A stretch of 64,000 nucleotides of DNA from Actinopolymorpha sp. NPDC004070 (lineage in GTDB: Bacteria > Actinomycetota > Actinomycetes > Propionibacteriales > Actinopolymorphaceae). The notes beneath the pieces were generated by a model that was given only the letters and a program-made list of their open reading frames with translations, was not told where the DNA came from and made no database searches. The translations under genes and the position numbers were made by a program. Positions 18,693-33,390 of the stretch are shown here, piece by piece. The stretch lies in the NCBI RefSeq assembly GCF_040610475.1, contig NZ_JBEXMJ010000010.1, positions 62,001-126,000 of the forward strand, given 5' to 3'. The stretch's first letter is position 1. Each line of letters starts with the position of its first letter.

Positions 18693-19394
18693 TCAGCGGG
18701 CAAGTGGTGTCGACACGACGGAGTGGAGGTCACGAAGTCGGTGGGTTTGGGCGACGGCGACGAGCACCGGCACGATCAGCGCCATGCCGGCGATCGTCAC
18801 CACCCCCACCAGCACGCACAGCCCCACCAGCAGCCAGGTGACCAGCGCGCGTTCCGGCGCCTGCCAGACCAGCCGCACCGACCGGGCCGCGAGTCGCGCG
18901 GGCGACAGGGAGGGGTCGGCGGCGAACAGCGGGCCCCAGTACGTCCCGCACACCGACCAGACCAGCACGCCCAGCGTCAGCACCGTCACCAGCGGAGTGA
19001 GCCCGGCCGCCGAGGCGGCCCACGCCGACCACACGAGGACGCCGAACGTTCCATAGAGCGGGGCCAGGGCGCGCAGGGCGGGTACGCCGAGCTCACGGAG
19101 GAGTTCGGTGGCCAGCCCGAGGTCGACGTGCTGACCCCGGCAGGCCGAGGCGGCGACGCCGTACACCACGGCGGTGGCCGGCGGCAGCGCGGTCGCGCTG
19201 ACCAGCCCGAGCACCACCCGCAACCAACCCGGCAGCCCGGTGAACGCCAGCGCCACCACGCCGGGCGCGAGCACCGCCGCCCAGGCGAGGTTGGTCATCA
19301 CCATCCGCTCCACCTGGTCGGCGACGGTCGCGAAGGTCGCCCAGCTCGGGCTCCGGCGTTCGTCACCGGGCCCGATGTCATCCAGGAACGGCAC
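18693..19394 (-). CDS. YesL-like (DUF624) membrane protein
   Basis: A 233-residue protein with about five hydrophobic segments (for example AAVLAPGVVALAFTGLPGWL, LVTVLTLGVLVWSV and LLVGLCVLVGVVTIAGMALI). DUF624/YesL proteins accompany oligosaccharide ABC transporters of the CUT1 type, with unknown role. GTG at 19392-19394 has a perfect AGGAGG six bases upstream and overlaps the end of the ATPase gene by 17 bp. It is the last gene of the long minus-strand operon. Confidence 0.7.
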   Translation of the reverse strand: MPFLDDIGPGDERRSPSWATFATVADQVERMVMTNLAWAAVLAPGVVALAFTGLPGWLRVVLGLVSATALPPATAVVYGVAASACRGQHVDLGLATELLRELGVPALRALAPLYGTFGVLVWSAWAASAAGLTPLVTVLTLGVLVWSVCGTYWGPLFAADPSLSPARLAARSVRLVWQAPERALVTWLLVGLCVLVGVVTIAGMALIVPVLVAVAQTHRLRDLHSVVSTPLAR

Positions 19395-20595
19395 CGGCGG
19401 CCTCCTGCCCACTCGAGGGGTTCGCGCCGGCGGCGACCGGCGCGTCCGGGGCCAGCAGCGACGCGCCGGTCTCGGCGTCGAACAGATGCGCCTTCGCCAT
19501 GTCGACGCCGAGCGGGATCTCCTGGTCGAGGTAGCTGTTCGGCACCCGTACCTTGAACGTCGCCACGAAGTCCTGACCCTCCGAGCCGCCCGACCCGCCC
19601 GGCCCGCTCGGCCCCGCCGGCAGGCTGAGGTAGACCGTGCTGCCGGCGGACGTGGGCTCGACCAGGTTGACCACGCCGTGGATGGTGTTGTCCTCGGTGA
19701 CCTCGAACGGTGCCATCCGCGGCACGTGCAGGTGTTCGGGCCGCACGCCCAGCTTTACCGGCCGGTCGACGTGCCGGCGCAGCCGTTCGGTCACGCTGCG
19801 ATCCAGCGGCAGCCGCAGGCCCGCGCCCTCGACCACCAGCCCGTCGCCCTCGCCGCGCACCACCATGTCGAAGAGGTTGATGCTCGGCGTGCCGATGAAG
19901 TACGCCACGAACAGGTTGGCGGGGTGGTCGTACAGCTCCGCCCCGGTGCCGACCTGCTGGATCCGGCCGGCGTTCATCACCGCGATCCGGTCACCGAGCG
20001 CCATCGCCTCGGACTGGTCGTGGGTGACATAGACGGTGGGCCGGCGCTTCTCCCGGTGCAGGGTGAGGATGTCCTCGCGCGCCTGGTAGCGCAGCTGGGC
20101 GTCCAGGTTCGACAGCGGTTCGTCGTAGAGGTACAGCTCCGCGTCGCGCACCATCGCCCGCGACAGCGCCACCCGCTGGCGTTCACCGCCGGACAGCTGC
20201 CGCGGCTTGCGGGCCAGCAGGTGGTCGATGCGGAACGTCGCCGCCGCGGCCGGTACGGCGTTGCGGACCTCCGCACGCGGCGTACGCCGGGACCGCAGGC
20301 CGTAGGCGATGTTCTCGAACACCGTCAGGTGCGGCAGGATCGCGTAGTCCTGGAAGACCATCGCGATGTTGCGGTCCCGCGGCCTGATCTCGTTGACCAG
20401 CCGCTCGCCGAAGCGGATCTCCCCCGAGCTGACGGGTTCCAGGCCGGCGAGCAGCCGCAGCGTCGTCGTCTTGCCGCAGCCGGACGGGCCGACCAGGACG
20501 AGCAGCTCACCGGCGGCGATCTCGAAGCTCACCCCGTCGACGGCGCGTTTCTCCGCGAACTGCTTGACCAGGTTGTCCACCGCGATCGCGTTCAC
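19378..20595 (-). CDS. MalK/UgpC-type sugar ABC transporter ATPase (copy 1)
   Basis: A 405-residue ATPase: Walker A GPSGCGKTT (about 36-44), Q-loop VFQDYAI, signature LSGGERQRV, Walker B LYLYDEPLSNLD and switch His in VTHDQSEA. A C-terminal TOBE-like regulatory domain follows with GVRPEHLHV. It energises sugar import at the inner face of the membrane. It is one of three MalK-type ATPases in this operon. The last 50 residues are Gly/Ser/Ala-rich. It follows copy 2 by 30 bp. Confidence 0.92.
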   Translation of the reverse strand: MNAIAVDNLVKQFAEKRAVDGVSFEIAAGELLVLVGPSGCGKTTTLRLLAGLEPVSSGEIRFGERLVNEIRPRDRNIAMVFQDYAILPHLTVFENIAYGLRSRRTPRAEVRNAVPAAAATFRIDHLLARKPRQLSGGERQRVALSRAMVRDAELYLYDEPLSNLDAQLRYQAREDILTLHREKRRPTVYVTHDQSEAMALGDRIAVMNAGRIQQVGTGAELYDHPANLFVAYFIGTPSINLFDMVVRGEGDGLVVEGAGLRLPLDRSVTERLRRHVDRPVKLGVRPEHLHVPRMAPFEVTEDNTIHGVVNLVEPTSAGSTVYLSLPAGPSGPGGSGGSEGQDFVATFKVRVPNSYLDQEIPLGVDMAKAHLFDAETGASLLAPDAPVAAGANPSSGQEAAGAVPG

Positions 20596-20625
20596 CGTGC
20601 CGCTCCTCCTCGTTCCGGTGCCGTG

Positions 20626-21744
20626 TCAGAACAGTTCGAGTACGCCGGGGACATGGTGCGGCTCCTCTCCGTCGGCGGCGAACACGTACGCCCGCTCCCA
20701 GTCCGGGGTGATCGCCACCTCGGCCCGGTCGGGATAGTCGACGGGCGCGGTCACAGCGACGTTGGCCTCGCCCAGGTGGCCGTACAGGAAGCTCGCCCGC
20801 TCGGTGGGGATCCGCTCGCGGTGGCGTATCCGCAGCGGCGCTCCGTCGGAGGTGTCCAGCAGCCAGCCCTCCGGCCGTACGCCGACCCGCACGGGACCGG
20901 TCGGCAACGAGCCGGCGAGACCGTCCGGCAGCTGCCAGGTGCCTCCGGGAACGGTGACCCGGCCCGCCTCGATCGCCGCCGGGATCACCGCCATCGGCGG
21001 GGCACCGACGAACGTCGCCACGAACAGGTTCGCCGGCGTGGAGTACAGCTCGTCGAACGTGCCGACCTGCTCGATCCGGCCGCCGCGCATCACCGCGATC
21101 CGGTCGCCCATGAAGATGGCTTCCTGCTGGTCGTGGGTGACATACAACGTGGTGATCGCGAACTTTCGCAGGAGCTTGCGGATCTCCACCCGGGTGCGTT
21201 CGCGCAGCTTCGCGTCCAGGTTGGAGATCGGCTCGTCCATGAGGAACAGCTGCGGCTCGCGGACGATGCACCGCCCGATCGCCACCCGCTGCTGCTCCCC
21301 GCCGGACAGCGTGTCGGGCACCCGGCCGAGCAACTGCTCGAACCCGATGCCCATCCGCTCGGCGGTCTCCCGGGTGCGCTGCTCGGCCTCCTCCTCGGTG
21401 CGGTCGTGCACCTCGAAGTAGTAGGCCAGGTTGCCCTTTCCCTTCATCGACGGGTAGAGCGCGTAGTCCTGGAAGACCATGCCGACACCGCGTTCCTGCG
21501 GGCGGACGTGGGTTACGTCCTGGCCGTTGTAGAGGATCCGGCCGGAGTCGGGGTACTCCAGTCCCGCGACCACCTTGAGCAAGGTGGACTTGCCACATCC
21601 GGACGAGCCCACCACGCTGACCGTCTCCCCCTCGGCGAGGGACAGGCTCACGCCGTCCAGCGCCGGGCGTTCCTCGCCGTGCAGGTCGACCACCCGCTCG
21701 GCCTGGTAGCGCTTGCGCACCTGCTCGATCTCGATCGACGCCAT
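20626..21744 (-). CDS. MalK/UgpC-type sugar ABC transporter ATPase (copy 2)
   Basis: A 372-residue ATPase: Walker A GSSGCGKST, VFQDYALYPSM, signature LSGGEQQRV, Walker B LFLMDEPISNLD and VTHDQQEA. A C-terminal TOBE-like domain follows with GVRPEGWLL. It has an insert YYFEVHDRTEEEAEQRTRE after the Q-loop region. It may form a heterodimer with copy 1, since both sit directly behind the two permease genes. It begins 9 bp after malG-like. Confidence 0.92.
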   Translation of the reverse strand: MASIEIEQVRKRYQAERVVDLHGEERPALDGVSLSLAEGETVSVVGSSGCGKSTLLKVVAGLEYPDSGRILYNGQDVTHVRPQERGVGMVFQDYALYPSMKGKGNLAYYFEVHDRTEEEAEQRTRETAERMGIGFEQLLGRVPDTLSGGEQQRVAIGRCIVREPQLFLMDEPISNLDAKLRERTRVEIRKLLRKFAITTLYVTHDQQEAIFMGDRIAVMRGGRIEQVGTFDELYSTPANLFVATFVGAPPMAVIPAAIEAGRVTVPGGTWQLPDGLAGSLPTGPVRVGVRPEGWLLDTSDGAPLRIRHRERIPTERASFLYGHLGEANVAVTAPVDYPDRAEVAITPDWERAYVFAADGEEPHHVPGVLELF

Positions 21745-21753
21745 CGGCGGTCC

Positions 21754-22779
21754 TCACTTCAGGCCGCGCAGGCGGATGCCGCGCAGCAGGTACTCACGGC
21801 AGACGATGAACGCGATGAACACCGGCAACGACTGCAGGATGCCGAGCACCATCAGGCCGTTCCACGACATGCCGGCGGACAGGATCTGCTGCATCTGCTG
21901 GGCCGCCGCACTGGCCTGGTTGGCGTCCGTCGCGCCCGCCTGGGTGAACTTCTGCAACAGGTTGTAGATCTCCACCGAGGCCGGCATCTTGTCCGGACTC
22001 TGCAGCACCACCAACGGCCACAGGAACTGGTCCCACGCTCCGCTGAACGCACCCCAGATCGCCACGGCGTACACGGGAACGCTCATCGGCAGCACGATCC
22101 GGCGGAAGATGTTGAACTCCGACCCGCCGTCCACCCGGGCCGCCTGGATCACCGAGTTCGGGATCGTGTCGAAGAACCCCTTGAAAAGAAGGAAGTTGAA
22201 CGCCTGGAAGACGATCGGCAGGATCACCGCCCAGTGCGTGTCCCAGATCCGTACGTTGGGCCAGACGAGGGTGTCGCTGCCGAAGAACGACGGCGCGTCC
22301 GGAAGGGCGAACGGGAAGTTGCGGGTCAGCAGGTAGTTCGGGATCAGGGTGAGTGCTGCCGGCATCATCAGCGTGCCGATGAAGAACAGGAAGGACCAGC
22401 GGGCCAGCGGCCCGGTCTGCAACTTCGAGTTGGCGTACGCCGCGAGCGAGGTGATCGGGATGCCCAGCACCAGCACCCAGAAGGTGATGTTCACCGAGTT
22501 CAGGAAGAACTTCCAGAACGGTCCGTCCATCAACGTCGTGGCGGCGGTGTTGCCGCCCTGGACCAGGCTCACCACCAGCCGCCAGCCGGCGACGGTGCCG
22601 TCGTGCGGCCACCAGGTCGGCGGGAACTGCAGCACCTCCTGGCCGGACTTGAACGACGTGATCAGCATGAAATAGAAGGGAAACAGGTGCAGGGTGATGC
22701 CGAGGCACAGGAACGCCACGACCAGCCACCAGGCGATCCGCAGCATCGGCTGCCTGCGCCCCACGCGTGGGAAGAGCAT
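21754..22779 (-). CDS. CUT1 carbohydrate ABC transporter permease (MalG-type)
   Basis: A 341-residue permease with six hydrophobic segments and the EAA-type coupling loop VIQAARVDGGSEFNIFRRI before VLP, which contacts the ATPase. An extracytoplasmic stretch near the N-terminus carries FPPTWWPHDG. The segment after the EAA loop has an unusual Gln/Ala-rich insert (QASAAAQQMQQIL). It follows the MalF-type gene by 36 bp. Confidence 0.92.
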   Translation of the reverse strand: MLFPRVGRRQPMLRIAWWLVVAFLCLGITLHLFPFYFMLITSFKSGQEVLQFPPTWWPHDGTVAGWRLVVSLVQGGNTAATTLMDGPFWKFFLNSVNITFWVLVLGIPITSLAAYANSKLQTGPLARWSFLFFIGTLMMPAALTLIPNYLLTRNFPFALPDAPSFFGSDTLVWPNVRIWDTHWAVILPIVFQAFNFLLFKGFFDTIPNSVIQAARVDGGSEFNIFRRIVLPMSVPVYAVAIWGAFSGAWDQFLWPLVVLQSPDKMPASVEIYNLLQKFTQAGATDANQASAAAQQMQQILSAGMSWNGLMVLGILQSLPVFIAFIVCREYLLRGIRLRGLK

Positions 22780-22815
22780 GTCTTCGGTCCTCCTACCGGT
22801 CTACTGGTCCGTGGC

Positions 22816-23841
22816 CTACTGGTCGGGGTCCTCGCGGAAGAACCTGCGCTGGATGACCACCAGCACCATGGTCACCACGAACAAGAAGACGCCGAGTGCG
22901 GTCGCGTCGGCGTAGCGCAGGCTGCGCATGAGCTCGTAGAGGTACATCACGACCGTGCGGCTCGCACCGCCGGGCCCACCGCCGGTCATGATGAGCGGGA
23001 ACTCGAACGCCTGCGAGGATCCGATCACCGCGAAGATCAGCAGCATCGAGATGACCGGTCGCAGCCGGGGCAGCGAGATCGTCCAGATCTTGCGCCAGAA
23101 ACCCGCACCCTCGATCTCGGCCGCCTCGTAGTAGGAGGCCGGAATCCCTTGCAGGGTTGCCATGTAGATAAGCCCCGGCCCGAAGAACAGGATGCCGGGG
23201 AACACCAGCCAGAACAGCACCTGGTTGCCGCTGTTGAGGAACGGCTGCGGCGACAGGTGCAGCACCTCCGTGGCCACCCACTGGAACAGGCCGTACTGCG
23301 CGTTGAACATGTAGCGGAACAACAGCGTGCTGGCGATTCCCGACAGCGGCAGGAACCACAACAGCATCATCCAGCGGATGTGCCGCCGCGGCATCTCCAT
23401 CAACAGGATCGCCACCACGACCGGGATCATGAACGTCAGCCCGATGCTCAGCACCGTGTAGATCGCGGTGACCTTGAACGCTTCGCCGACCAGCGGGTCA
23501 CGCCACATCCGCAGGTAGCTCGTCAGCCCGGTGAACTCCACCGGACCGCGGAAGCGGGCGTTGGTGAAGCTGATGACGAACGCCATCAGCAGCGGGTACC
23601 AGCCCCACGACAACTGGAAGAGGAACGCCGGTGTGACGAACAGCGCTCCCTCCAGCCGGCGCCGGCGGCTCAGCTTGGGCGCGGCCGCGGTGGCCTGGCC
23701 CTGCGGGCCCTGAGGGGTCCCGGCGCCGGGCGCATCGGTCAGCGCGGTCGACGCGGTGCCCTGACGGGCCGCGGGGTTCGGGGTGTTGTCGGGGTTCTGG
23801 CCGGAGCCCGAGGCCCCGGGAATCACTCGTTCACCAGTCAT
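22816..23841 (-). CDS. CUT1 carbohydrate ABC transporter permease (MalF-type)
   Basis: A 341-residue permease with a 60-residue Pro/Gly/Gln-rich cytoplasmic N-terminus, then six membrane helices starting LEGALFVTPAFLFQLSWG. The EAA loop is YYEAAEIEGAGFWRKIWTI before SLP. It is the usual partner of the MalG-type subunit. It starts 9 bp after the solute-binding protein stop. The long polar N-terminus is atypical but probably disordered. Confidence 0.92.
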   Translation of the reverse strand: MTGERVIPGASGSGQNPDNTPNPAARQGTASTALTDAPGAGTPQGPQGQATAAAPKLSRRRRLEGALFVTPAFLFQLSWGWYPLLMAFVISFTNARFRGPVEFTGLTSYLRMWRDPLVGEAFKVTAIYTVLSIGLTFMIPVVVAILLMEMPRRHIRWMMLLWFLPLSGIASTLLFRYMFNAQYGLFQWVATEVLHLSPQPFLNSGNQVLFWLVFPGILFFGPGLIYMATLQGIPASYYEAAEIEGAGFWRKIWTISLPRLRPVISMLLIFAVIGSSQAFEFPLIMTGGGPGGASRTVVMYLYELMRSLRYADATALGVFLFVVTMVLVVIQRRFFREDPDQ

Positions 23842-23850
23842 CGGTGCCGC

Positions 23851-25530
23851 TCATCCCTTCAGGGCCGGCAGGACGGAGTTCTGGTACCACGGCGAGAAGA
23901 CGTCGCGGTGGTAGTCCGGTGCGTTCTCCCGCCAGTAGGTGTCGTGCGCACCGAAGTAGTCGCGCGCAGCCTTGACGAAGTCCGGGTCGGAGGTGCTGGA
24001 GGAGAAACTGCGCGCCTGGGCGTTCATCGTCGCCTCCATCTTCGCCAGGTCACCGCGCAGGTCGAGGGTGCCGCGTTCGTTCGCCCACCGCGAGGTCATG
24101 TCGTCGCGCGCGGTTCCGGTCGGCCCGGGGCTGAGCTCGGCCGGGAAGTAGAACGCCTCGTTCGGCACCAGCGGGATCTTCGAGGCCCGGCGTACCTGAT
24201 CCATGAACGGCTTGCCCCACGCGTCGTCGGGAGTGACCGGCATCTGCTCCACCAGCCCGGCGAACAGCGGCATGAAGTCGGCGCTGTCGAAGACCCGCTT
24301 GGCATCCTTGGTGGCCGCGTAGGTCGCCTTCTTCTGCTCCACCCAGCCGGGACCCTTCATCCACGCGTGCAGGCTGATCGCCTTGTCCAGCGCGAGGTCG
24401 TCCATGTCGGGTGAGAAGCCGACGAGGTCCACCTGCCCCTGGGTGGTGCCGGTGCGCCCGTTCAGGCCGATCGGCTGGGTCATCCACCCCACGACGTCCT
24501 CGATCGGCTTCTTCAGCCGGGCGGCCAGGTCGGCCGGTGCGGTGTCGCTGCCCGGTGTGTTGGCGAAGAAGATCACCGTGTTGTTGTGCATCGCGGCGTC
24601 GCCGCGGACGAACGCCGCCAGCGTGTCGCCGTCGCCCATGCTCACGTCCGCGAGCACGCTCTTGTCCTTGAAGACCATGTCCCGCATGCCCTGGATCAGC
24701 GGCACCCAGCGGTCGACGCCGGACATGTAGTCCCAGCGCCAGTTCCAGTTCGTCGACGGTGCGGGCAGCTTGGCGTGGTAGTCCATGCCGTCCGCGCTGA
24801 GCCGCATGTTCAGGCCCCAGCCCTGCAGGACGATTCCCTTGCGCTTGCCCTTGGTCAGTCCCTTGGCCAGCGTGCGTACGTCGTCCCAGGTCCAGTCCGG
24901 CGTCGGTTCCTTCAGCCCCAGCTCACGCACCAGGTCGACGCGGTAGTGCAGGCCGGTCCCGACGTTGTAGATCCACGGCGCGGCGTAGAACTTCCCGTCG
25001 ACCTGCCACTTCTCCCAGATGGGCTTGACGTAGCTCGCCAGCTTGCCGGCGATGTCGTGGGTCTTCAGGTGTTCGGTCACGTCGGCGGACAGCCCCTGTG
25101 CCATCGCCGAACGCACCGCCTGGCGGTTCCAGCCACCGAGCACGTCGCCGGGGAACATCGACGGGGCGGTGCCACCGGTGATCGCGGTGGACAGCGTCTG
25201 CTGGTTCCACACGTCCAGCTTGACGTCCTGGATGGTGACGCCGGGGTTCTTGTCCATCCACGCGCCGAGCACGTCGGCGTAGGACTTCGTTCCCGCGTTG
25301 GCCTTCTGGTCCTTCTTCGTCGGCATCGGGCCGTAAGGCCAGCCGCCCGACGTCTTCAGGACGACATGGCCGTCGGTGCTGGCACCCCGGCGCGCGCACG
25401 AGCTCAGCAGGCCGCCACCCGCGGCGAGGAAGGTTCCCGACGCCATCAGCGACAGCATCTGCCGTCGGGTCGGCGCGGCGGCGTACCCCTTCGGCGCAGG
25501 TGTTCTCGGACTTGCGGGATCGGTGTTCAT
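23851..25530 (-). CDS. Large Tat/lipoprotein extracellular solute-binding protein
   Basis: A 559-residue binding protein. Twin Arg at 22-23 (TRRQML), a hydrophobic stretch and a lipobox ending LLSSC (Cys45) indicate Tat export and lipid anchoring. The mature part carries the motif GTAPSMFPGDVLGGWN and many Trp residues (for example NWNWRWDYM), fitting an oligosaccharide ligand. At about 515 mature residues it is larger than a typical CUT1 binding protein and closer to the YtcQ/LplA type that travels with YesL. The ATG overlaps the propeller gene stop (ATGA). Confidence 0.88.
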   Translation of the reverse strand: MNTDPASPRTPAPKGYAAAPTRRQMLSLMASGTFLAAGGGLLSSCARRGASTDGHVVLKTSGGWPYGPMPTKKDQKANAGTKSYADVLGAWMDKNPGVTIQDVKLDVWNQQTLSTAITGGTAPSMFPGDVLGGWNRQAVRSAMAQGLSADVTEHLKTHDIAGKLASYVKPIWEKWQVDGKFYAAPWIYNVGTGLHYRVDLVRELGLKEPTPDWTWDDVRTLAKGLTKGKRKGIVLQGWGLNMRLSADGMDYHAKLPAPSTNWNWRWDYMSGVDRWVPLIQGMRDMVFKDKSVLADVSMGDGDTLAAFVRGDAAMHNNTVIFFANTPGSDTAPADLAARLKKPIEDVVGWMTQPIGLNGRTGTTQGQVDLVGFSPDMDDLALDKAISLHAWMKGPGWVEQKKATYAATKDAKRVFDSADFMPLFAGLVEQMPVTPDDAWGKPFMDQVRRASKIPLVPNEAFYFPAELSPGPTGTARDDMTSRWANERGTLDLRGDLAKMEATMNAQARSFSSSTSDPDFVKAARDYFGAHDTYWRENAPDYHRDVFSPWYQNSVLPALKG

Positions 25531-27380
25531 CGTCCCCTCCTCGTCGGAATCGCGGTCCACACGCCGCCGCCGGCGAGCAGGACGAGGAGCTCGTCGCCGC
25601 GGCCGGCAAGGTCGTACGCCGACGCGGGATCCGGGCCGTCCTCGACGCGGCGCCAGTCGGTGTCGCTGCCGGTGTCGGTGCTGGTGTCGGTGCTGTGCTC
25701 GAGGTCGTACGTCCACAGCCCGTCGCCGGTGAGCGCGGCCAGGCCGTCCGGAGTACCGGTCATCGCCCGTACTCCCGTGTCGAAGGTGGTGAGCTGCTTC
25801 CACCCGCCATCGTCACCGCGGACGATCACCAGCCGCCCGATGCCGAGGACGGCCGGGCCCCCGGCCCCCGCCCGGGCGAAGTGCACCTGCGGCCACGCCG
25901 TCTCCGCGGTGAGCTGCTGCCGCCACGTCCGGCCTCCGTCGGCGGAGTCGAAGACGGTGACGAGGTTGCGCCGGTGGTCGAAGGTCGCCGCCACGAGGTC
26001 GTCGCCGCCGACCCAACCCAGTGCGGTGAGCGGGAAGGTGCCGAACGGCGCCGGCCGCTGCTGCCACGTACGCCCGGCGTCGGCACTGTGCAGCAGCATG
26101 TCGCCGTGCCGGGCCGGCGCGGCCCATCCGCGCCCGTCCGCGGCGAACGCCAACCGGCCGACCTCCCCGGCACTCCCCTCCACCACCAGGGTCCAGTCGA
26201 CGTCGGCCGGCGTCCGCCGCAGGAGCCCGTCCGGCCCGGATGCCAGCAACGCGCCGTCGGACGCGACGCCCAACCCCAGCAGGGGAAACGGCACATCGGC
26301 CACCGGCTCCCAGGCGCCCGGCGCGGCCGGCGCGGTCAGCGCGGCCGGCCGGACGATTCCCGACCGCGGACCGGCGAGCAGCGGGCGACCGTCCCACCAG
26401 ACCAGCCGATCCAGGTCGGCGGTGGAGGGGACGCCGACCTCGGACCAGGTGTGCCCGTCGTCGTGGCTGACCAGCAGGCCGGTGTCTATGCCGGCGTACG
26501 TCGCCGTGCCGTCGGCCAGCAGGCAGTGCACCGTTGTTCCGGCCGCCGTTGTCGCGGCCACCGTCGTTGCAGCCGCCGTCTCGCTCCAGCCGGTGCCGTC
26601 GGTGGAGCGCCACACTCCCCTGCCGGACGTACCGGCGAGCAGCGTTCCGGACGCGGTCGCGACCAGCGCGGTGACAGGTGCGGGGAGCGAGCCCAGCGGT
26701 GACCAGGTTCGTCCGTCGTCGGCGGAGCCCCACAGCCGACCGGACTCCAGTCCGGCGACGACCGAGCCGTCCGCCCTCGACGCGAACGCCGCCACCGGTG
26801 CGTCGGGACCCGGTGCGTCGGGACCCGACGCGTCCGGGCGGGTGCGTCCGGTCCGCCGCCAGGCCCGGCCGGAGTTGTCGCCGGCGAACACGCCCTCCGG
26901 CGTACCGGCGAGCAACCGGCCGCCGGGCGTACGGACCAGCGCGGTGACCTCGGTGTCGGCCAGGCCGAACACCGGCTGCCACGTCCGCCCGCCGTCCACG
27001 CTGCGGAGTACGCCGTCCCCGAGCGTGGCCGCGAGGGCGACGTTGCTGTCGGCATTGCCTTCCTCGTGGTCGGACGCCGCCGAGTCCACGTCCGCCGCCG
27101 GCACGTCGAGGAACGCCACCACGGGCGCACCACTCCCCTGCACCTGCGCGAGATCCCACGCGTCGCCGGTACGGCGGGCGATCCCCTCCGCGCCGCCGGC
27201 GAGCAGCCGGCCCGCCACGGCACCGAGCGCGGCCACACAGGTCAGCGGGCCGTCCACGCCGGCCGCGCCGTCCACGCCGGTCGCGCCGATCGACACCACC
27301 CCGCCGACTCCGCCCAGCCACAACTCCTCCGGGCGAGGACCCCTCGCGGCCGACAGGATCGGGCTCGCCGGTTCACCCAC
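25527..27380 (-). CDS. Cytoplasmic Asp-box (BNR/YCF48-like) beta-propeller protein
   Basis: A 617-residue protein with repeated Asp-box motifs (S/T-x-D-x-G-x-T-W): SVDGGRTW, SADDGRTW, STDGTGW, SHDDGHTW, SADAGRTW and SADGGRTW, each followed by a beta strand. This predicts one or two beta-propellers. There is no signal peptide and no membrane helix, which is odd for a family usually exported, so it probably stays in the cytoplasm. It overlaps the chaperonin gene by 8 bp and the binding-protein gene by 4 bp. No sialidase active-site Arg triad or Tyr was identified, so it is likely a binding scaffold. Confidence 0.75.
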   Translation of the reverse strand: MGEPASPILSAARGPRPEELWLGGVGGVVSIGATGVDGAAGVDGPLTCVAALGAVAGRLLAGGAEGIARRTGDAWDLAQVQGSGAPVVAFLDVPAADVDSAASDHEEGNADSNVALAATLGDGVLRSVDGGRTWQPVFGLADTEVTALVRTPGGRLLAGTPEGVFAGDNSGRAWRRTGRTRPDASGPDAPGPDAPVAAFASRADGSVVAGLESGRLWGSADDGRTWSPLGSLPAPVTALVATASGTLLAGTSGRGVWRSTDGTGWSETAAATTVAATTAAGTTVHCLLADGTATYAGIDTGLLVSHDDGHTWSEVGVPSTADLDRLVWWDGRPLLAGPRSGIVRPAALTAPAAPGAWEPVADVPFPLLGLGVASDGALLASGPDGLLRRTPADVDWTLVVEGSAGEVGRLAFAADGRGWAAPARHGDMLLHSADAGRTWQQRPAPFGTFPLTALGWVGGDDLVAATFDHRRNLVTVFDSADGGRTWRQQLTAETAWPQVHFARAGAGGPAVLGIGRLVIVRGDDGGWKQLTTFDTGVRAMTGTPDGLAALTGDGLWTYDLEHSTDTSTDTGSDTDWRRVEDGPDPASAYDLAGRGDELLVLLAGGGVWTAIPTRRGR

Positions 27381-29013
27381 GGCCGCTCACCACCGACGCC
27401 GACACCAGGACGCCCGCCGTGGCGCCGGCCGCCTCCACCGCTGCGACGGCCACGCCCGCGACGTCGAACACACCGGCCGCTCGCATCGGCAGGCAGCGAT
27501 CGGTGAGTACGTCGATGCCGTGGCCGGGCCCGAGTGCGCGGACCGCGGCCAGGGCGACCCGGGGGTCGCGGGCGCCGGCGTTGGCGACCAGGCGGAGGAA
27601 CGGCGCCTCCAGGGCCGCCGCCACCGCGTCCATGCCGGCGCCCCGGTCGGGGTCGGTGCAGTGCGCCCACGCCGTGCGGACGGCGTCCACGCAGTCCAGG
27701 TAGGCCACCCCGCCGCCGGTCACGACGCCCTCCCGCAGCGCGGTCCGGGCCAGCCGCACCGCCCGCCGGGCCGTGCGCAAACGGTCGTCGCGTTCGGCCT
27801 CGGTCGCAGCACCCACCCGGACGGCGCCGACCCGGCCGAGCAGGCGCGCCTGGCGCAGCCACATCCGGTCGGCGGTACGCGTGGACGCCTCCGAGCCGTC
27901 GTCGAGTTCCCAGGCCCGGGTACGCAGCCGGGCGGCCAGGTCGGTGAGCGCGCCCCGGTCGCCCTCGCCGCCCGCTACGGACATGTGCCCGGCCCGCACG
28001 ACGGCGCGCCGCGCCCGGCCGGCGTACGCCGGGACGAACCGCTCCGGCGGCGGGCCGAACTCCGGCGACAGCACGGTGGCACCGGTGAGCAGGGCCAGGT
28101 CGGCGAGGTCCTCACCCTGCCGGACCCCGGCCGTGGTGAGGACGACCGGCGCACTCACCACCAGCCCGCGGCGGTCGTTCAGCAGACACGTGGTGGCCGC
28201 GCCGCCGGTCACGTCCCGGGCCACCAGCAGCAACGGCGGCCGGCCGGGCAGCGCCCGCACGGCCTCCAGGATCGGGACGACCTGCGCCGGTTCGTCGAGT
28301 ACGACGTCCGCGACCACCACCGCCGGGTCGACCAGGGTCAGCTCGGTGTGCGAGCCACCGAACGCGCCACCGCCGGACAGCAACTCCGGCCCGGCCGGAC
28401 GGGCGGGCCACCGGCTGCCGTCCACGTAGTCGTGAGCGACGCCGGTACGTACGGACTCCTCCACCACGACCGCCCCGTCGGGCCCCAGCACGTCCAGCAG
28501 TTCCCCGACCGCGCCGGCCAGCGCCCGGTCGCCGCTGGCGGCCGTGACCAGGCCGGCCAGGTCGTCCGGCCCCTCGACCGGGCTCGCCTGGCCCTTCAGC
28601 GCGTCGGCGGCGCATCCGACCGCGGCCGTGATCCCCTCGCGGACCAGCACCGGATTGGCGCCGGCGGCCACCATCCGGTGCGCGTGCCGGACGATCGCCG
28701 CGGTCAGCACCGCGGTGGTGGCGCCGCCGTCGCCGTGCCGGCCGACCACCGTGCGTACCGCCTCACGCAGCAGCGCCGCGCCCGCGTTCGCGCCGCGCCC
28801 GGGCAGGGTGGTGACCCGGCGGGCGATGGTCGCCGCGTCGTCGAGACCCTCGGCGGTCCCGCCGCCCGCGTCGTTCAGCACCACGCCCCGGGACGGACCG
28901 AGGGTGAGCGCGAGCAGCCGGGCGAGGGTGTCGAAGCCGGCCATGAGGGCGGCCTCGGACCGGTCGGCGGGCGTGGCGGACCGGTCGCCAGCCGTGGCGG
29001 ACGCGGCGGTCAT
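27373..29013 (-). CDS. Divergent GroEL-like (Cpn60) chaperonin, probably altered ATPase
   Basis: A 546-residue protein alignable by eye with E. coli GroEL nearly end to end: LGPSRGVVLN (38-47), GDGGATTAV (94-102), AAGANPVLVREGI, the apical motif PLLLVARDVTGGAATTCLLN, LTGATVLSPE, VGAATEAE and EGVVTGGGVAY (429-439). Asp95 matches GroEL D87 and Asp59 matches D52. In the ungapped segment between GAATE and EGVV, Arg418 replaces D398, the residue needed for ATP hydrolysis. Two of the three Thr after D87 are Gly and Ala. The Gly-Gly-Met tail is absent. It overlaps the ATPase gene (ATGA) and the propeller gene. No groES is nearby. It is probably a specialised assembly or holding factor. Confidence 0.85.
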   Translation of the reverse strand: MTAASATAGDRSATPADRSEAALMAGFDTLARLLALTLGPSRGVVLNDAGGGTAEGLDDAATIARRVTTLPGRGANAGAALLREAVRTVVGRHGDGGATTAVLTAAIVRHAHRMVAAGANPVLVREGITAAVGCAADALKGQASPVEGPDDLAGLVTAASGDRALAGAVGELLDVLGPDGAVVVEESVRTGVAHDYVDGSRWPARPAGPELLSGGGAFGGSHTELTLVDPAVVVADVVLDEPAQVVPILEAVRALPGRPPLLLVARDVTGGAATTCLLNDRRGLVVSAPVVLTTAGVRQGEDLADLALLTGATVLSPEFGPPPERFVPAYAGRARRAVVRAGHMSVAGGEGDRGALTDLAARLRTRAWELDDGSEASTRTADRMWLRQARLLGRVGAVRVGAATEAERDDRLRTARRAVRLARTALREGVVTGGGVAYLDCVDAVRTAWAHCTDPDRGAGMDAVAAALEAPFLRLVANAGARDPRVALAAVRALGPGHGIDVLTDRCLPMRAAGVFDVAGVAVAAVEAAGATAGVLVSASVVSGRG

Positions 29014-30134
29014 GGCACCAGCGCCTGTTCGCTGTCGTGGTCGAACAGCCGCAGGCCCTCCGGAGCGACGTCCAGGCGTACGGAGTCACCCGGGGCGAGC
29101 GAACCCTCCTCGCCGGCCCGGAAGATCGCGGCCATCGACCGGCCCGCGGTCCTCAGCCGGACCACCGTCTCCCCGATCAGCGGCTCCACGTCGGTGACCT
29201 CACCGGTGATCGCCGCGTCCCCGTCGGCGGCCGGCACCAGCGCGTCCGGGCGGATCCCCACCGTCACCTGCTCCTTGCCGTACCGCGACAGGGTGTCGCT
29301 CCACGCCGACGGCAGCGAGAAGGCGGTGCCCGAGCCGTTGGGACCGCCCGGGCCGTCCGAGCCGTGTGCGACGTACGCACCGTTCACCGGCCGCAGCCGG
29401 GCGGGCAGCAGGTTCATCGGCGGTGACCCGACGAAGCCCGCGACGAACACGTTGGCGGGCCGGTCGACGAGCTCGTCCGGCGGGCCGATCTGCTGCACCC
29501 GGCCGTCGGCCAGCACCGCCACCACGTCGCCCATCGCGAACGCCTCGGTCTGGTCGTGGGTGACGTAGACGCTGGGGCGGCCCTTGTCGCGGTGCAGGGC
29601 GAGGATGTCGCGGCGCAGCCGGTACCGCAGCTTCGGGTCCAGGTTCGACAGCGGTTCGTCGAAGAGGTACGCGTCGGCGTCCTTCACCATCGCCCGGCCG
29701 AGCGCCACCCGCTGCTGCTCGCCACCGGACAGGTCGGTGATCGGTGAGCTGAGCAGCGGGCCGAGGTCGAGCCGGTCCGCTGCCGCCCGGATGCGGCGTT
29801 CGATCTCGTCCTTGGGCACACCGCCGCGTGCCTGCAGCCCGTACGCCATGTTGCCGAAGACGTCCATGCTGGGATACAGGCCGTACTCCTGGAAGACCAT
29901 CCCGAGGTTGCGGTCCCGCGACGGCAGCGAGGTCACCACCCGGCCGCCGATGACGACGTCGCCCGCGTCGGGATGTTCCAGTCCGCACACGATCCGCAGG
30001 GTGGTGGTCTTCCCGCAGCCGGACGGGCCGAGGAGTACGAAGAACTGCCCGTCCTCGACCGTGAACGACATTCCGTCCACCGCCCGGTGGTCACCGAGCT
30101 GCTTCACCAGGCCGCGTACCTCCAGGGTGGGCAC
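29010..30134 (-). CDS. MalK/UgpC-type ABC transporter ATPase (copy 3)
   Basis: About 374 residues: Walker A GPSGCGKTT, VFQEYGLYPSM, signature LSGGEQQRV, Walker B DAYLFDEPLSNLD and VTHDQTEA. A TOBE-like C-terminal domain follows with GIRPDALVP. GTG at 30132-30134 lies eight bases after AAGGAG; a GTG at 30143 would overlap that site. Unlike copies 1 and 2 it is placed first in the structural operon, next to the chaperonin, with a 4-bp overlap. A third ATPase for one permease pair is unusual; it could serve another transporter or be a client of the chaperonin. Confidence 0.9.
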   Translation of the reverse strand: MPTLEVRGLVKQLGDHRAVDGMSFTVEDGQFFVLLGPSGCGKTTTLRIVCGLEHPDAGDVVIGGRVVTSLPSRDRNLGMVFQEYGLYPSMDVFGNMAYGLQARGGVPKDEIERRIRAAADRLDLGPLLSSPITDLSGGEQQRVALGRAMVKDADAYLFDEPLSNLDPKLRYRLRRDILALHRDKGRPSVYVTHDQTEAFAMGDVVAVLADGRVQQIGPPDELVDRPANVFVAGFVGSPPMNLLPARLRPVNGAYVAHGSDGPGGPNGSGTAFSLPSAWSDTLSRYGKEQVTVGIRPDALVPAADGDAAITGEVTDVEPLIGETVVRLRTAGRSMAAIFRAGEEGSLAPGDSVRLDVAPEGLRLFDHDSEQALVP

Positions 30135-30150
30135 GGCAACCACTCCTTCC

Positions 30151-30215
30151 GGGTCAGTTGGCTGGGTCGGTTGGCTGGGTCGGTTGGCTGGGTCAGGTGG
30201 GCTGGGTCAGGTGGC
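30151..30215. repeat. 13-14 bp tandem repeats at the PhyH/ATPase junction
   Basis: Five imperfect units of GGGTCGGTTGGCT form (units 2 and 3 identical; the last two GGGTCAGGTGGGCT and GGGTCAGGTGGCC) span the 63-bp gap and include the PhyH stop codon at 30207-30209. Such an array could vary by slippage and change spacing between the two genes. Confidence 0.65.
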
Positions 30216-30974
30216 CGGTGCGTTCGCGACGACTTCGCGCATGCCCGCCCACTCCCGCCAGATGTCGGTCATGCACTCCCAGCGCACCGACTGGTGGTCG
30301 ACGTGGCTGAGCCGGAAGAAGATCGCGTACCGGATGTGCGGGGAGGCGTTGCCGGCGATGCCGTGCCCGAGCTGGTAGTGGGCGAGCACCGCGTCACCGG
30401 CCCGGGCGGTGACCTGCTCCGGCTCGGCCACCTCCACCTCCGGCATGCCGTTCAGCAGGGAGTCCGGGCCGTGCTCGCGGAAGTAGCTTTCGTACTGGCG
30501 GTGGCTGCCCGGCCAGACGGTGAAGTTGCCGGCATACGACGTGGGCACGTCGCTGAGGAACACCCCGACCAGCGCGGTGAAGTTGGCGATCGTCCCCTTG
30601 GGCACACCGTTGTGCGGGCTGTACATGCCGTCGATGTGGGCGTGCGGGTCGTGCGGTGTGCCGGCGGCGGGGAAGCGCAACGCGATCTGGCCCGCGTTCA
30701 CCGGTGCGATCGCGCCCTCACCGATCGCGGACTCGGCGACCTCCCACAGCGGTGACCGGTGCAACAGGTCGGTGATGGCCGGTGAGGTCTGGAGTTCCGG
30801 GGTGTACGACCGGGACCGGAAGGTCACCAGTTCGTCGGGATGGATGCCCTCGGAGCCGAGCGAGCCGTTGATCGCCCGCAAGGCCGCGTTGACAAGCTCG
30901 CTGGGAACGATCCCAGGCAGGCGAACCAGCCCGTCGTCGTACAACGCCTGCTTGTGGGCCGTGGTCAGCCGCAT
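30207..30974 (-). CDS. Phytanoyl-CoA dioxygenase (PhyH) family oxygenase
   Basis: A 255-residue protein with the Fe(II)/2-oxoglutarate facial triad: H-x-D at 113-115 (HAHIDGM) and distal His204 (QLGHGIAGN), followed by Arg215 (SPHIRYAIFF) for 2-oxoglutarate. PhyH enzymes hydroxylate diverse small molecules; here the setting suggests modification of the imported sugar or glycoside. It starts 7 bp after the LacI gene and is probably in the same transcript. The substrate is unknown. Confidence 0.85.
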   Translation of the reverse strand: MRLTTAHKQALYDDGLVRLPGIVPSELVNAALRAINGSLGSEGIHPDELVTFRSRSYTPELQTSPAITDLLHRSPLWEVAESAIGEGAIAPVNAGQIALRFPAAGTPHDPHAHIDGMYSPHNGVPKGTIANFTALVGVFLSDVPTSYAGNFTVWPGSHRQYESYFREHGPDSLLNGMPEVEVAEPEQVTARAGDAVLAHYQLGHGIAGNASPHIRYAIFFRLSHVDHQSVRWECMTDIWREWAGMREVVANAPAT

Positions 30975-30981
30975 CAGTCGA

Positions 30982-32106
30982 TCACCCTTGTGTGATGGAG
31001 GTTGTGGAGGTTGTCGCGGTGGTTCCGGTGGTTCCGGTGGTTGCCGTCACCGGCTCGTACGGCGGCGCCGGCGGGTTGCGCGGCGCGGTTGACCCACGGA
31101 CCACCAGGTGGACGCCGACCCGGGTCTCCCGCCAGCCCATGTGCGGAAAGCGCAGCCGCTCGGTGAGGTTCCACACCGCCTGCATGCCGAGCAGTTCCTT
31201 GTCGACGGCGATGGTGGTGAGCCCGGGGACGCTGTGCGCGGCCATCGCGATGTCGTCGTAACCGATCACCGAAACGTCGGTGGGCACGGCGATCCCGCGT
31301 TCGCGGAGCAGGTCGATGGCACCAAGGGCGGTGTTGTCGTTGCCGCAGAAGACCGAGGTCGGCGGCACCGGCAGATCCAGCAGGGCGGCCATCTCCTCCC
31401 TCCCGCTCTCCGCGCTCAACCGGCCGCCGCGAACGTAGGCCGGGTCGGCCGGGACGCCGTACTCCGCCAGCGCCTGGTGGTATCCGGCCAGCCGCGCGGT
31501 GATCGAGTACGCCGTCGACGGTCCGGTGATGATGGCCGGCGGTGGGTTGCGGTGCCCCAGGTCGAGCAGGTGGGTGGTGGCCAGGTAGCCGCCACGGTGG
31601 TCGTCGGCACGTACGCAGTCCACGGGCAGGTCCTCGACCAGGTGGTCGATCAGCACGCAGGGCGTCCCGGTCTCCAGCAACCTCTCCACGTACCGCTGTT
31701 CGTGGTAGCCGGCCAGCAGCAGCCCCTGCGCCTGCCGGCGGCGCAGCACCAACGGCAGCGCGCGGCTGTCACGATCACCGTCGTGCAGGGTCTCCATCAC
31801 CAGCGACACCCCGAGGGCGGCGATCGCCGACTGCGCACCGTAGAGAACCGGACCGTAGAAGGGGTTGGCCGGGCCGACGTAGTGCTCGCCACGAGCCAGC
31901 AGGCCGAACGCCGAAACGCCAGCGGCCAGTGACTCCGCCGGCCGCCGGCGTGGTTGGTAGCCGATTTCCTCCGCGGCGGCCAGAACCGCCTTTCGGGCCT
32001 GTTCGGAAACGGCCGCATTACTGGTGAACACACCGGAGGCGGTCCCGATAGAAACACCTGCGCGCGCGGCGACCTCCCGCAGTGTCGACCGCCGCCGTGC
32101 ACCCAT
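30982..32106 (-). CDS. LacI-family transcriptional regulator
   Basis: A 374-residue regulator. The N-terminal HTH (TLREVAARAGVSIGTASGVF, residues 8-27) is followed by the hinge RPAESLAAG and a periplasmic-binding-like sensor with SVIGYDDIAMA near the end. The C-terminal 20 residues are a Thr/Gly repeat tail encoded by short DNA repeats at about 30997-31050. ATG at 32104-32106 has GAGGGG upstream. As first gene of the minus-strand operon and divergent from the amidohydrolase, it probably controls both in response to a sugar. Confidence 0.92.
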   Translation of the reverse strand: MGARRRSTLREVAARAGVSIGTASGVFTSNAAVSEQARKAVLAAAEEIGYQPRRRPAESLAAGVSAFGLLARGEHYVGPANPFYGPVLYGAQSAIAALGVSLVMETLHDGDRDSRALPLVLRRRQAQGLLLAGYHEQRYVERLLETGTPCVLIDHLVEDLPVDCVRADDHRGGYLATTHLLDLGHRNPPPAIITGPSTAYSITARLAGYHQALAEYGVPADPAYVRGGRLSAESGREEMAALLDLPVPPTSVFCGNDNTALGAIDLLRERGIAVPTDVSVIGYDDIAMAAHSVPGLTTIAVDKELLGMQAVWNLTERLRFPHMGWRETRVGVHLVVRGSTAPRNPPAPPYEPVTATTGTTGTTATTSTTSITQG

Positions 32107-32124
32107 TCAGACCCCTCGGGTTTC

Positions 32125-32138
32125 ACTGAACATTCAGT
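32125..32138. promoter_or_regulatory. Candidate LacI-type operator 1
   Basis: ACTGAA-CA-TTCAGT, a perfect 6-bp inverted repeat with a 2-bp centre, 19 bp upstream of the lacI ATG. It shares ACTGAA-NN-TTCAG with the second site at 32255. Confidence 0.5.
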
Positions 32139-32217
32139 AACCCCTGCCTGCGTGGAGGTTACGTGCACATGTCGGTGACGGGGAACGCCGCTGTCCCATC
32201 GTGGACAGGACCCGGGC

Positions 32218-32225
32218 AAGCGCTT
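32218..32225. promoter_or_regulatory. Palindrome AAGCGCTT resembling a LacI/CcpA-type core
   Basis: AAGCGCTT lies within GGCAAGCGCTTTCG, which fits the TGNAANCGNTTNCA-like pattern of LacI-family operators. It is midway between the two ACTGAA palindromes. A second regulator or the local LacI protein could bind it. Confidence 0.35.
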
Positions 32226-32254
32226 TCGCGTTCATTTCGACAAGTGAAGAGAAC

Positions 32255-32267
32255 ACTGAAAGTTCAG
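32255..32267. promoter_or_regulatory. Candidate LacI-type operator 2
   Basis: ACTGAA-AG-TTCAG(C), matching operator 1 at 11 of 12 arm positions, on the amidohydrolase side of the intergenic space. Two like palindromes, one near each divergent gene, are typical of a shared regulator. Confidence 0.5.
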
Positions 32268-32374
32268 CCGTATTCGGCCGTCTGAAACCAGCTACGAACT
32301 TCCCGGAAAAGGCCTCACGCGGTCGACAATGTGGCCATGCCGAAAAGCGTTCGCCATTCGGCGGTGTGGCCGCG

Positions 32375-33328
32375 ATGAGCCCCTACACCGGCCCCGTCGT
32401 CGACGCACACCACCACGTGTGGGACCTGGCTCTGGGCGGCCAGCCGTGGCTGGTGGACGACCCGATGATCGCGTTCCGGTACGGCAACTACGGGCGGATC
32501 CGCCGCGACTACCTGCCCCCGGACTTCCGCACCGACACCGCCTCGGTGGCCGACCTCGGGCTCGACGTGGTGGGCAGCGTCTTCGTGGAGACGGAGTGGC
32601 GCGTCGACGACACACTGTCCGAGATCGCCTGGGTGAGCGGACTGGCCGAGAAGACGGGCGTGCCCAGCGTGGTCGTCGGGCACGCGGTACTGAACTCATC
32701 CGGCATCGCCGAGCACCTGGCGGCAGTCGCCGCCGCACCACTCACCCGCGGGATCCGGCACAAGCCCGGCGGCGCGGCCACACCGGACCGGGCATCGGCC
32801 GAACCCACGATGATGACCGACCCGCGCTGGCGGGCGGGCTTCGCGCGGCTGGCACCGCTCGGACTGCACTACGAACTCCAGGTGCCGTGGTGGCACCTGC
32901 ACGAGGCGGCCGACCTCGCGGCGGAGTTCGACCAGACCCCGATGGTGATCAACCACACCGGGCTGCCCGCCGACCGTTCGCCGGCTGGGTTGGCCGGCTG
33001 GCGCGACGCGATGCGGCTGGTGGCGGAAAAGCCCAACGTGTACTGCAAGATCTCCGGCCTGGACATGCCGCGCACCACCTGGACGCCGGAGCTGCAACGA
33101 GAGGTCGTGCTCACCACCCTGGAGCTGTTCGGCTCGCAGCGGTGCATGTTCGCCAGCAACTTCCCGGTGGACGCGCTGTGGGCGACGTACGCACAGATCT
33201 TCGGTGGCTTCCAGGACCTCACCGCCGACCTGTCCGCGAGCGAACAACGCGCGGTCTTCTTCGGCACCGCGTGTGACTTCTACCGCATCGGCCCGGACCG
33301 CCTGTGGCCGGCGCCGAACGCCGGCTGA
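32375..33328 (+). CDS. Amidohydrolase family protein, fuconolactonase/PDC-lactonase-like (COG3618)
   Basis: A 317-residue TIM-barrel hydrolase of the amidohydrolase-2 type. VVDAHHHVWD (8-17) gives the metal-binding His group; INHTG and CMFASNFPVD are the usual later motifs. The family opens sugar lactones such as L-fucono-1,5-lactone or similar rings. ATG at 32375 is preferred over an ATG at 32201 because the fold starts directly after it and the earlier segment would span the operator sites; a GTG at 32366 is also possible. It is divergent from LacI, so it is probably part of the same sugar-use regulon. Confidence 0.85.
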   Translation: MSPYTGPVVDAHHHVWDLALGGQPWLVDDPMIAFRYGNYGRIRRDYLPPDFRTDTASVADLGLDVVGSVFVETEWRVDDTLSEIAWVSGLAEKTGVPSVVVGHAVLNSSGIAEHLAAVAAAPLTRGIRHKPGGAATPDRASAEPTMMTDPRWRAGFARLAPLGLHYELQVPWWHLHEAADLAAEFDQTPMVINHTGLPADRSPAGLAGWRDAMRLVAEKPNVYCKISGLDMPRTTWTPELQREVVLTTLELFGSQRCMFASNFPVDALWATYAQIFGGFQDLTADLSASEQRAVFFGTACDFYRIGPDRLWPAPNAG

Positions 33329-33342
33329 CCGCGCACTGCCTT

Positions 33343-33390
33343 CTCAGTCGCCGACCGCCTCAGTCGCCGACCGCCTCAGTCGCCGGCCTC
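33343..33390. repeat. 16-bp tandem repeat over the end of adnB
   Basis: Units CTCAGTCGCCGACCGC at 33343-33358 and 33359-33374 are identical; the third (33375-33390) diverges in its last bases and contains the adnB stop. It lies between convergent genes and probably arose by duplication of the adnB 3-prime end. Confidence 0.7.

Follow-up and report, generated by a model that had tools for sequence, protein, structure and literature searches.

A divergent chaperonin gene within a sugar-transport operon

The stretch of DNA analysed here (64,000 nucleotides, hereafter the window) belongs to contig NZ_JBEXMJ010000010.1 of the soil bacterium Actinopolymorpha sp. NPDC004070. An intact reading frame on its minus strand (27373..29013) encodes a divergent group I chaperonin (Cpn60) of 546 amino acids which, judging from profile, alignment and structural model, has no equivalent of Asp398 of GroEL. 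The gene lies in an operon whose order on the minus strand is LacI-family regulator, PhyH-like protein, MalK-like ATP-binding cassette (ABC) ATPase, chaperonin, beta-propeller protein, solute-binding protein, two permeases, two further MalK-like ATPases and a membrane protein. The two neighbours of the chaperonin gene are a MalK/UgpC-like ABC ATPase gene (29010..30143, minus strand), assigned from profile and sequence, and a gene for an Asp-box (BNR/Ycf48/sortilin-like) beta-propeller of 617 amino acids (25527..27380, minus strand), assigned from profile and motifs. The tight coupling to both that had been claimed in the original prediction was readily seen: the MalK stop and the chaperonin start have in common the ATGA at 29010-29013, and the GTG start of the propeller gene overlaps the chaperonin stop by 8 nucleotides. 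The propeller stop shares another ATGA, at 25527-25530, with the start of the solute-binding protein gene. A shorter frame considered for the propeller, 25813-27321, was spurious and had no Pfam or NCBIfam match.

The window chaperonin matched the Pfam Cpn60_TCP1 family (PF00118) with 93.9 bits (cut-off 34.3), and its residues from about 20 to 541 could be aligned with GroELs of solved structure, in agreement with the predicted near end-to-end alignment. Identity with canonical GroEL was about 30% over nearly the whole length. The AlphaFold2 model had the three-domain Cpn60 fold with a mean predicted local distance difference test (pLDDT) score of 93.8. The more specific models all scored below their cut-offs: 245.4 bits for the GroEL equivalog TIGR02348 (cut-off 582.1) and at best 30.8 bits for the thermosome/CCT models of groups II and III (cut-off 400). 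By these profile scores the protein belongs, as a divergent form, to the Cpn60 superfamily and is no GroEL equivalog. It also lacks the Gly-Gly-Met tail, as predicted, and ends in ...SASVVSGRG; the two canonical GroELs of the same genome, both encoded on other contigs, end in HGHGHGH and ...GGGMDF.

The reading frame was open in all six Actinopolymorpha genomes searched; in A. alba it is an open reading frame of 526 amino acids, and the longer match there holds one TGA. In comparisons with three congeners, the chaperonin had a ratio of nonsynonymous to synonymous substitution rates (dN/dS) of 0.24-0.27, the propeller one of 0.32-0.41, and MalK and the solute-binding protein one of 0.09-0.12. 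The chaperonin and the propeller are thus under purifying selection and evolve faster than the transporter parts. A value some two to three times as high as in the linked MalK and solute-binding protein genes would suit a decaying, pseudogene-like paralogue, an explanation that was already disfavoured and that we consider highly improbable in view of the open frames, the dN/dS of the chaperonin itself and an Asp87 equivalent that is present in every relative described below (112/112). Neither the chaperonin nor the propeller had a match in a PADLOC search for anti-phage defence systems.

The nucleotide site

Residues were mapped by multiple alignment, using E. coli GroEL numbering with Met as residue 1. 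Three aspartates are kept in the window protein, Asp52 as D59 (codon at 28837..28839, minus strand), Asp87 as D95 (28729..28731, minus strand) and Asp495 as D517, the first two as predicted. At the site of Asp398 in helix M the alignment placed R417 (27763..27765, minus strand; codon coordinates were computed from the start of the reading frame). The prediction that this aspartate had been replaced by arginine was therefore right, except for the residue number, since residue 418 is an alanine; nor did the alignment place an aspartate at the site after all. Thr89, Thr90 and Thr91 correspond to G97, A98 and T99, so that D95 is followed by GGAT in place of GTTT and the DGTTT motif reads DGGAT, again as foreseen. 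Other differences were K34 to S41, S151 to A159 and N479 to D501. The last of these was discarded as a mark of the chaperonin's relatives because Asp is also found in 17/40 canonical proteins.

In published work on E. coli GroEL, the helix M residue Asp398 is said to interact with the gamma phosphate, and the D398A mutant to have about 2% of the wild-type ATPase activity, with slow domain movement and slow substrate release (PMC3813556). The window protein is altered at the same site as this laboratory mutant, from which it differs in being natural, in having Arg and not Ala, in its further nucleotide-site changes and in being kept by selection.

A clade mostly lacking Asp398

Relatives were collected in two ways. 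A protein search, in which 7991 candidates were scored, gave 85 sequences (query included) at E <= 1e-60, none with Asp at position 398. A genome scan used a pattern around Asp87 that required Ala at the Thr90 site, so the state of that site is partly selected in this survey, and retained 80/154 confirmed loci. Nearly all of these were titled as Chloroflexota or their subgroups, besides Actinopolymorpha, Streptomyces and Microlunatus; single records were titled Proteobacteria, Bacteroidetes and uncultured bacterium. We then searched 33 of the scanned genomes for every Cpn60 gene, which added paralogues and supplied canonical GroELs as controls. After removal of 8 of 197 chaperonin frames (shorter than 350 amino acids) and merging of identical cores, the remaining 189 gave 152 distinct proteins, 112 in the clade of the window chaperonin and 40 canonical. 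Canonical proteins were defined as having both Asp398 and Thr90, and the presence of Asp398 in 40/40 of them is therefore true by construction.

In a FastTree phylogeny of 153 rows, including E. coli GroEL and calculated without columns 34, 52, 87-91, 398 and 479, a single branch with support 100 separated all clade proteins from all canonical ones. The change between Asp and another residue at position 398 required three steps on this tree. FastTree readily joins long branches, and as many inner forks were weak the inner order is unsure. The clade is well separated and occurs mostly in Chloroflexota and in few Actinomycetota. The Actinomycetota members were nested among those of Chloroflexota, and of 396 Actinomycetota genomes sampled the window's own was the single one with a match at E <= 1e-75, a threshold that more distant members escape; these two observations suggest that the clade moved between phyla by transfer. 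Because canonical GroEL is scored by the family profile as well (198/201 genomes), this profile gives no prevalence of the clade in Chloroflexota. In open-licence PMC literature we recognised no paper on this chaperonin or on its pairing with a propeller, and the clade is apparently undescribed.

Position 398 was occupied by Arg in 64 clade members, Glu in 11, Lys in 10, Gln in 9, Ala in 6, Asp in 4, His in 3, Tyr and Ser in 2 each, and a gap in one. Asp398 was thus absent from 107 of the 111 members readable at the site, and among 29 members from outside the first survey it was found once. Thr90 was replaced by Ala in 107/112, and in 24/29 of the members that had not been found through the Ala-requiring pattern. 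Lys34 and Ser151 were replaced in most members. The rest of the pocket was nearly invariant, with Asp87 kept throughout, Asp495 in 111/112 (one gap), Thr91 in 108/112, and the glycines of the GGG loop in 111/112 (G414), 107/112 (G415) and 109/112 (G416). Taken over 112 proteins, these site statistics indicate that the core pocket is kept while most of the contacts for hydrolysis and for the switch have disappeared; in the alignment the loss of Asp398 is a maintained state of the whole clade and not an alignment slip. Since Asp87, Asp495 and the GGG loop are so well conserved, nucleotide binding is probably kept, and by analogy with E. coli D398A hydrolysis is probably crippled.

Two side observations concern position 52. 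Five clade members (L059, L173, L180, L189 and L198) combine Lys at the Asp52 site with Glu at that of Asp398, so that the charges seem to be exchanged, and two otherwise canonical GroEL-type proteins of one genome (L234 and L237, genome G079) carry Ala at the Asp52 site.

Clade members occur alongside canonical GroEL. A full-length canonical match was found in 30/33 genomes; of the others, G064 and G072 had only fragments besides the variant and G081 had none. This coexistence would be expected of a co-subunit or regulator that mixes into canonical GroEL rings and tunes them without forming a ring of its own, and three residues point in the same direction: Arg197 is retained as Arg in 9/112 members, and in the window protein Arg452 and Glu461 are replaced by L473 and R482. 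However, position 452 is Arg in 82/112 and position 461 Asp or Glu in 76/112, so that many members keep inter-ring contacts of their own. As identity to canonical GroEL is only about 30% and the propeller pairing described below would be left unexplained, we give the mixing explanation a low probability.

The window genome has one groES gene directly upstream of one of its two canonical GroEL genes. In the prediction no groES had been seen near the variant chaperonin, and indeed no Cpn10 match was found anywhere on its contig (C10), both matches of the genome being on contig C1. The idea that a second GroES-like gene supplies the missing co-chaperonin was rejected: 12/13 genomes searched had two Cpn10 matches, and these include the window's own and relatives in which no clade member was found. 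The second, divergent Cpn10-like match (L104:1375-1803 and its relatives) is accordingly a separate observation whose occurrence is not tied to the variant chaperonin.

Pairing with a beta-propeller gene

The window propeller scored 35.2 bits with Pfam BNR (cut-off 27) and contained five Asp boxes by regular expression, which mark it as a probable propeller; a sequence search of PDB chains gave no match. Across the family Pfam BNR was over its cut-off, matches to sortilin and Ycf48 were mostly weak and NCBIfam NF045728 stayed below its cut-off.

A propeller gene lay downstream of the chaperonin gene, on the same strand, in 80/112 clade members, whereas none followed canonical GroEL in the same set of genomes (0/30 with 1.5 kb flanks, 0/40 with longer flanks). 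The propeller profile behind these counts had been built on first-survey loci, and among the 29 held-out paralogues 16 were paired. Where at least 1 kb of downstream sequence was available (n=105), the next gene was a propeller in 77 cases, PhyH in 7, a solute-binding protein in one and another gene or none in 20. The mechanically called reading frames of 58 first-survey pairs overlapped in 21 cases, were 0-60 nucleotides apart in 29 and further apart in 8. The pairing predicted from one locus is thus widely conserved, and the alternative that homologues would be unlinked to ABC or propeller genes does not hold, as most sit by a propeller gene.

The pairing was present on either side of the deepest forks of the clade. 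Two or more clade members were encoded in 16/33 genomes (maximum five), and two or more propeller-paired members in 11/33. A single shuffled operon is therefore an unlikely source of the pairing. These data bear on the view that the protein is an ordinary GroEL paralogue cycling with GroES, in which Glu or another residue replaces Asp398 in some lineages and the linkage is an accident of operon shuffling. Such a paralogue would be expected to keep Asp87, Asp495 and the GGG loop, Glu398 is indeed found in some members, and a pairing that changes repeatedly on the tree (see below) would fit an accident. Most members, however, have Arg, Lys, Gln, Ala or others at position 398, the window's contig yielded no Cpn10 gene, and the pairing spans both the deepest forks and paired paralogues of single genomes. 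We consider this view improbable.

Some genes found next to the chaperonin or the pair are of interest in themselves. In seven Chloroflexota loci (L094, L097, L182, L185, L190, L192 and L200) a PhyH-profile gene takes the place of the propeller directly after the chaperonin; its identity was checked with Pfam on L097 only. The window has a PhyH gene as well, separated from the chaperonin gene by MalK on the upstream side. Another clade chaperonin is followed downstream by a gene for a glycosyl hydrolase of family 10 (L171:7578-8750). In a set of Chloroflexota (L054, L058, L067, L070, L079, L080 and similar loci) the pair is followed by genes that, going by their L054 representatives, encode alpha-L-fucosidases, MFS transporters and an APH-family kinase; one gene family was counted in 13 loci and each of two others in 12.

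Linkage to sugar transport

The ABC linkage claimed for the window proved to be real in the clade at large. Sugar permease genes were found within 5.5 kb in 61/112 clade members but in 1/40 canonical ones, and in 48/74 of the members whose flanks measure 8 kb or more. Counting permeases or solute-binding proteins gave 63/112 and 2/40. Representatives, taken from the permease clusters and from one cluster of solute-binding proteins, were confirmed by Pfam; for the binding-protein profile 'sbp11', one of two cluster members checked gave a match to a twin-arginine translocation (TAT) signal only and the other none. We preferred the permease counts because that profile rests on a doubtful cluster. 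MalK-like genes were nearby in 19/112 clade and 4/40 canonical cases, and PhyH in 13/112 and 0/40. The gene immediately upstream (n=98) was a permease in 22 cases and MalK-like in 8.

This linkage is looser than that to the propeller. Among the 74 well-flanked members, 25 had no sugar permease or solute-binding protein gene within 5.5 kb, and 23 of these 25 were still propeller-paired. For this reason, of the two roles suggested in the prediction, a platform dedicated to the propeller is better supported than one dedicated to the transporter. A chaperonin devoted to folding or assembling the sugar ABC transporter (its permeases, its binding protein or the MalK-like ATPases), with the propeller as co-factor or lid-like adaptor, would account for the permease and solute-binding protein counts, for the upstream genes and for the place of chaperonin and propeller between MalK and the solute-binding protein in the window. 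Against it stand the members that keep the propeller although no permease or solute-binding protein gene was found nearby, and the scarcity of MalK-like genes, which also occur near canonical GroEL; moreover, sugar ABC transporters commonly occur without any chaperonin. On balance we regard such a role as unlikely.

Proposed function of the pair

The residues, the clade and the gene linkage bear out a non-canonical chaperonin, as the prediction had it; the slow-cycling assembly platform that it went on to suggest is what we infer from residues and linkage. The explanation we favour, tentatively and at somewhat less than even probability, is that this chaperonin cycles slowly, if at all, and serves specifically a co-encoded, probably cytosolic Asp-box propeller in sugar-use loci. 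It would keep the Cpn60 fold and probably bind Mg-nucleotide. Having lost both the helix M latch, Asp398, and the contacts of Thr90, Lys34 and Ser151, it would hydrolyse ATP slowly or fail to do so. Its main partner would most likely be the propeller encoded beside it, a one- or two-propeller protein judging by length. A ring of the chaperonin might take up freshly synthesised propeller and retain it or, alternatively, form a stable complex with it that persists; the setting would be cells that use sugar imported through the linked ABC system.

Several observations weigh against this explanation. Four clade members (L031, L040, L050 and L169) keep Asp398, and the Glu of 11 others might still serve in its place. 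An apparent charge covariation between positions 52 and 398 in the clade (Fisher p 5e-6) was not supported by kinship-independent pairs (median p 0.5), and a 52-398 salt bridge was dropped. In the apical domain, where residues are partly kept, the window protein has P, E and L for Tyr199, Tyr203 and Phe204. The model resembled the closed, GroES-bound shape (1aon_A, TMq 0.83; 1oel_A, 0.58), but a canonical control model was equally closed (0.82 and 0.63; pLDDT 80.5, 41 rows); the closed shape is therefore uninformative and a 'locked closed' mechanism was abandoned. No propeller was found downstream in 32/112 members; three of these have fewer than 110 bases of contig left, and others precede PhyH, a solute-binding protein, a glycosyl hydrolase of family 10 or, by eye, a dehydrogenase- or aldolase-like gene. 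The pairing changed 13 times on the tree of the 112 members, suggesting that it was often gained, lost or missed. As to location, a crude test found signal-like matches in 15/59 propellers, as against 14/14 solute-binding proteins and 2/79 chaperonins, and a hydrophobicity measure gave no separation between the propeller (1.53) and the solute-binding protein (1.48) of the window.

Comparison with known systems

Canonical GroEL shares with the window chaperonin the three-domain fold, Asp87, Asp495 and the GGG loop; the window protein differs from it in lacking Asp398, Thr90, Lys34 and the Gly-Met tail, in having no groES found on its contig and in being linked to a propeller. WD40 propellers are clients of eukaryotic CCT/TRiC, a group II, hetero-oligomeric and ATP-driven chaperonin, to which a propeller-specialised group I chaperonin would be a functional parallel. 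A fuller reading, possible but doubtful, takes the pair as the counterpart of CCT and WD40: an ATPase-crippled group I clade of Chloroflexota and a few actinobacteria, often with several members per genome, that would in most cases form a long-lived complex with its own cytosolic propeller, dispense with GroES and act as a capped ring or holding scaffold maturing or storing a propeller for sugar utilisation.

A GroEL-like gene beside a metabolic operon is also known from MmoG and MimG, proteins of di-iron monooxygenase operons. The likeness noted here is one of gene setting, and the partner of the window chaperonin would be a propeller in sugar loci. No di-iron monooxygenase was found among the window neighbours scanned, from 18693 to 33328, of which 18693-19412 had no family match. 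A GroEL-like protein of this type is reported to be needed for functional expression of one enzyme (PMC7994243). The chlamydial GroEL2 and GroEL3 are likewise divergent paralogues, described as differing in their ATP and GroES regions (PMC1892554); the window chaperonin scored far below the cut-offs of 600 of the corresponding NCBIfam models (NF038369, 60.7 bits; NF038370, 51.8 bits).

In the usual view GroEL is a generalist cage timed by ATP, and Asp398 is central to the timer. A natural clade without this residue, with the pocket otherwise kept and, for the most part, one type of partner gene, would reveal what a chaperonin can do without its timer, and it would offer natural slow-cycling proteins for structural studies. 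The pairing also gives a functional handle on a propeller family named in databases by its repeats only, and suggests that the label 'chaperonin GroEL' on genes of the clade is misleading.

Other genes of the operon and its surroundings

The remaining operon genes are all on the minus strand. Upstream of MalK lie a gene for a PhyH-family (phytanoyl-CoA dioxygenase-like) protein (30207..30974, profile match) and one for a LacI-family regulator (30982..32106, profile matches). Downstream of the propeller gene, an extracellular solute-binding protein of 559 amino acids (23851..25530), assigned from sequence, has by eye a twin-arginine, lipobox-like N-terminus. It is followed by two sugar ABC permeases, the first (22816..23841) with 24.4 bits, just under the cut-off of 26.4, and an NCBIfam match, the second (21754..22779) with profile matches. 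Then come a second MalK/UgpC-like ATPase (20626..21744, profile matches), a third, MalK-like one (19378..20595, profile match) and a protein of about 240 amino acids (18693..19412), a membrane protein by eye with no Pfam match and with relatives in L021, L022, L024 and L098.

A near-identical gene set, without PhyH and in permuted order, was found in Microlunatus parietis (L022) and, with LacI, on an Anaerolineae contig (L024). The L024 genes were confirmed by Pfam, except the binding-protein candidate, which had a TAT-signal match alone. Like the window operon, with its three MalK-like ATPase genes, L022 and L024 hold three of that cluster (one checked). Beyond the operon on one side, the gene at 15295-18303 encodes a metallopeptidase of the M36 (fungalysin) type that also carries a discoidin-like F5/8 C domain. 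Adjoining it on the other, at 33376-40169, adjacent, overlapping frames carry UvrD helicase and PD-(D/E)XK nuclease domains, an AdnAB-like arrangement.

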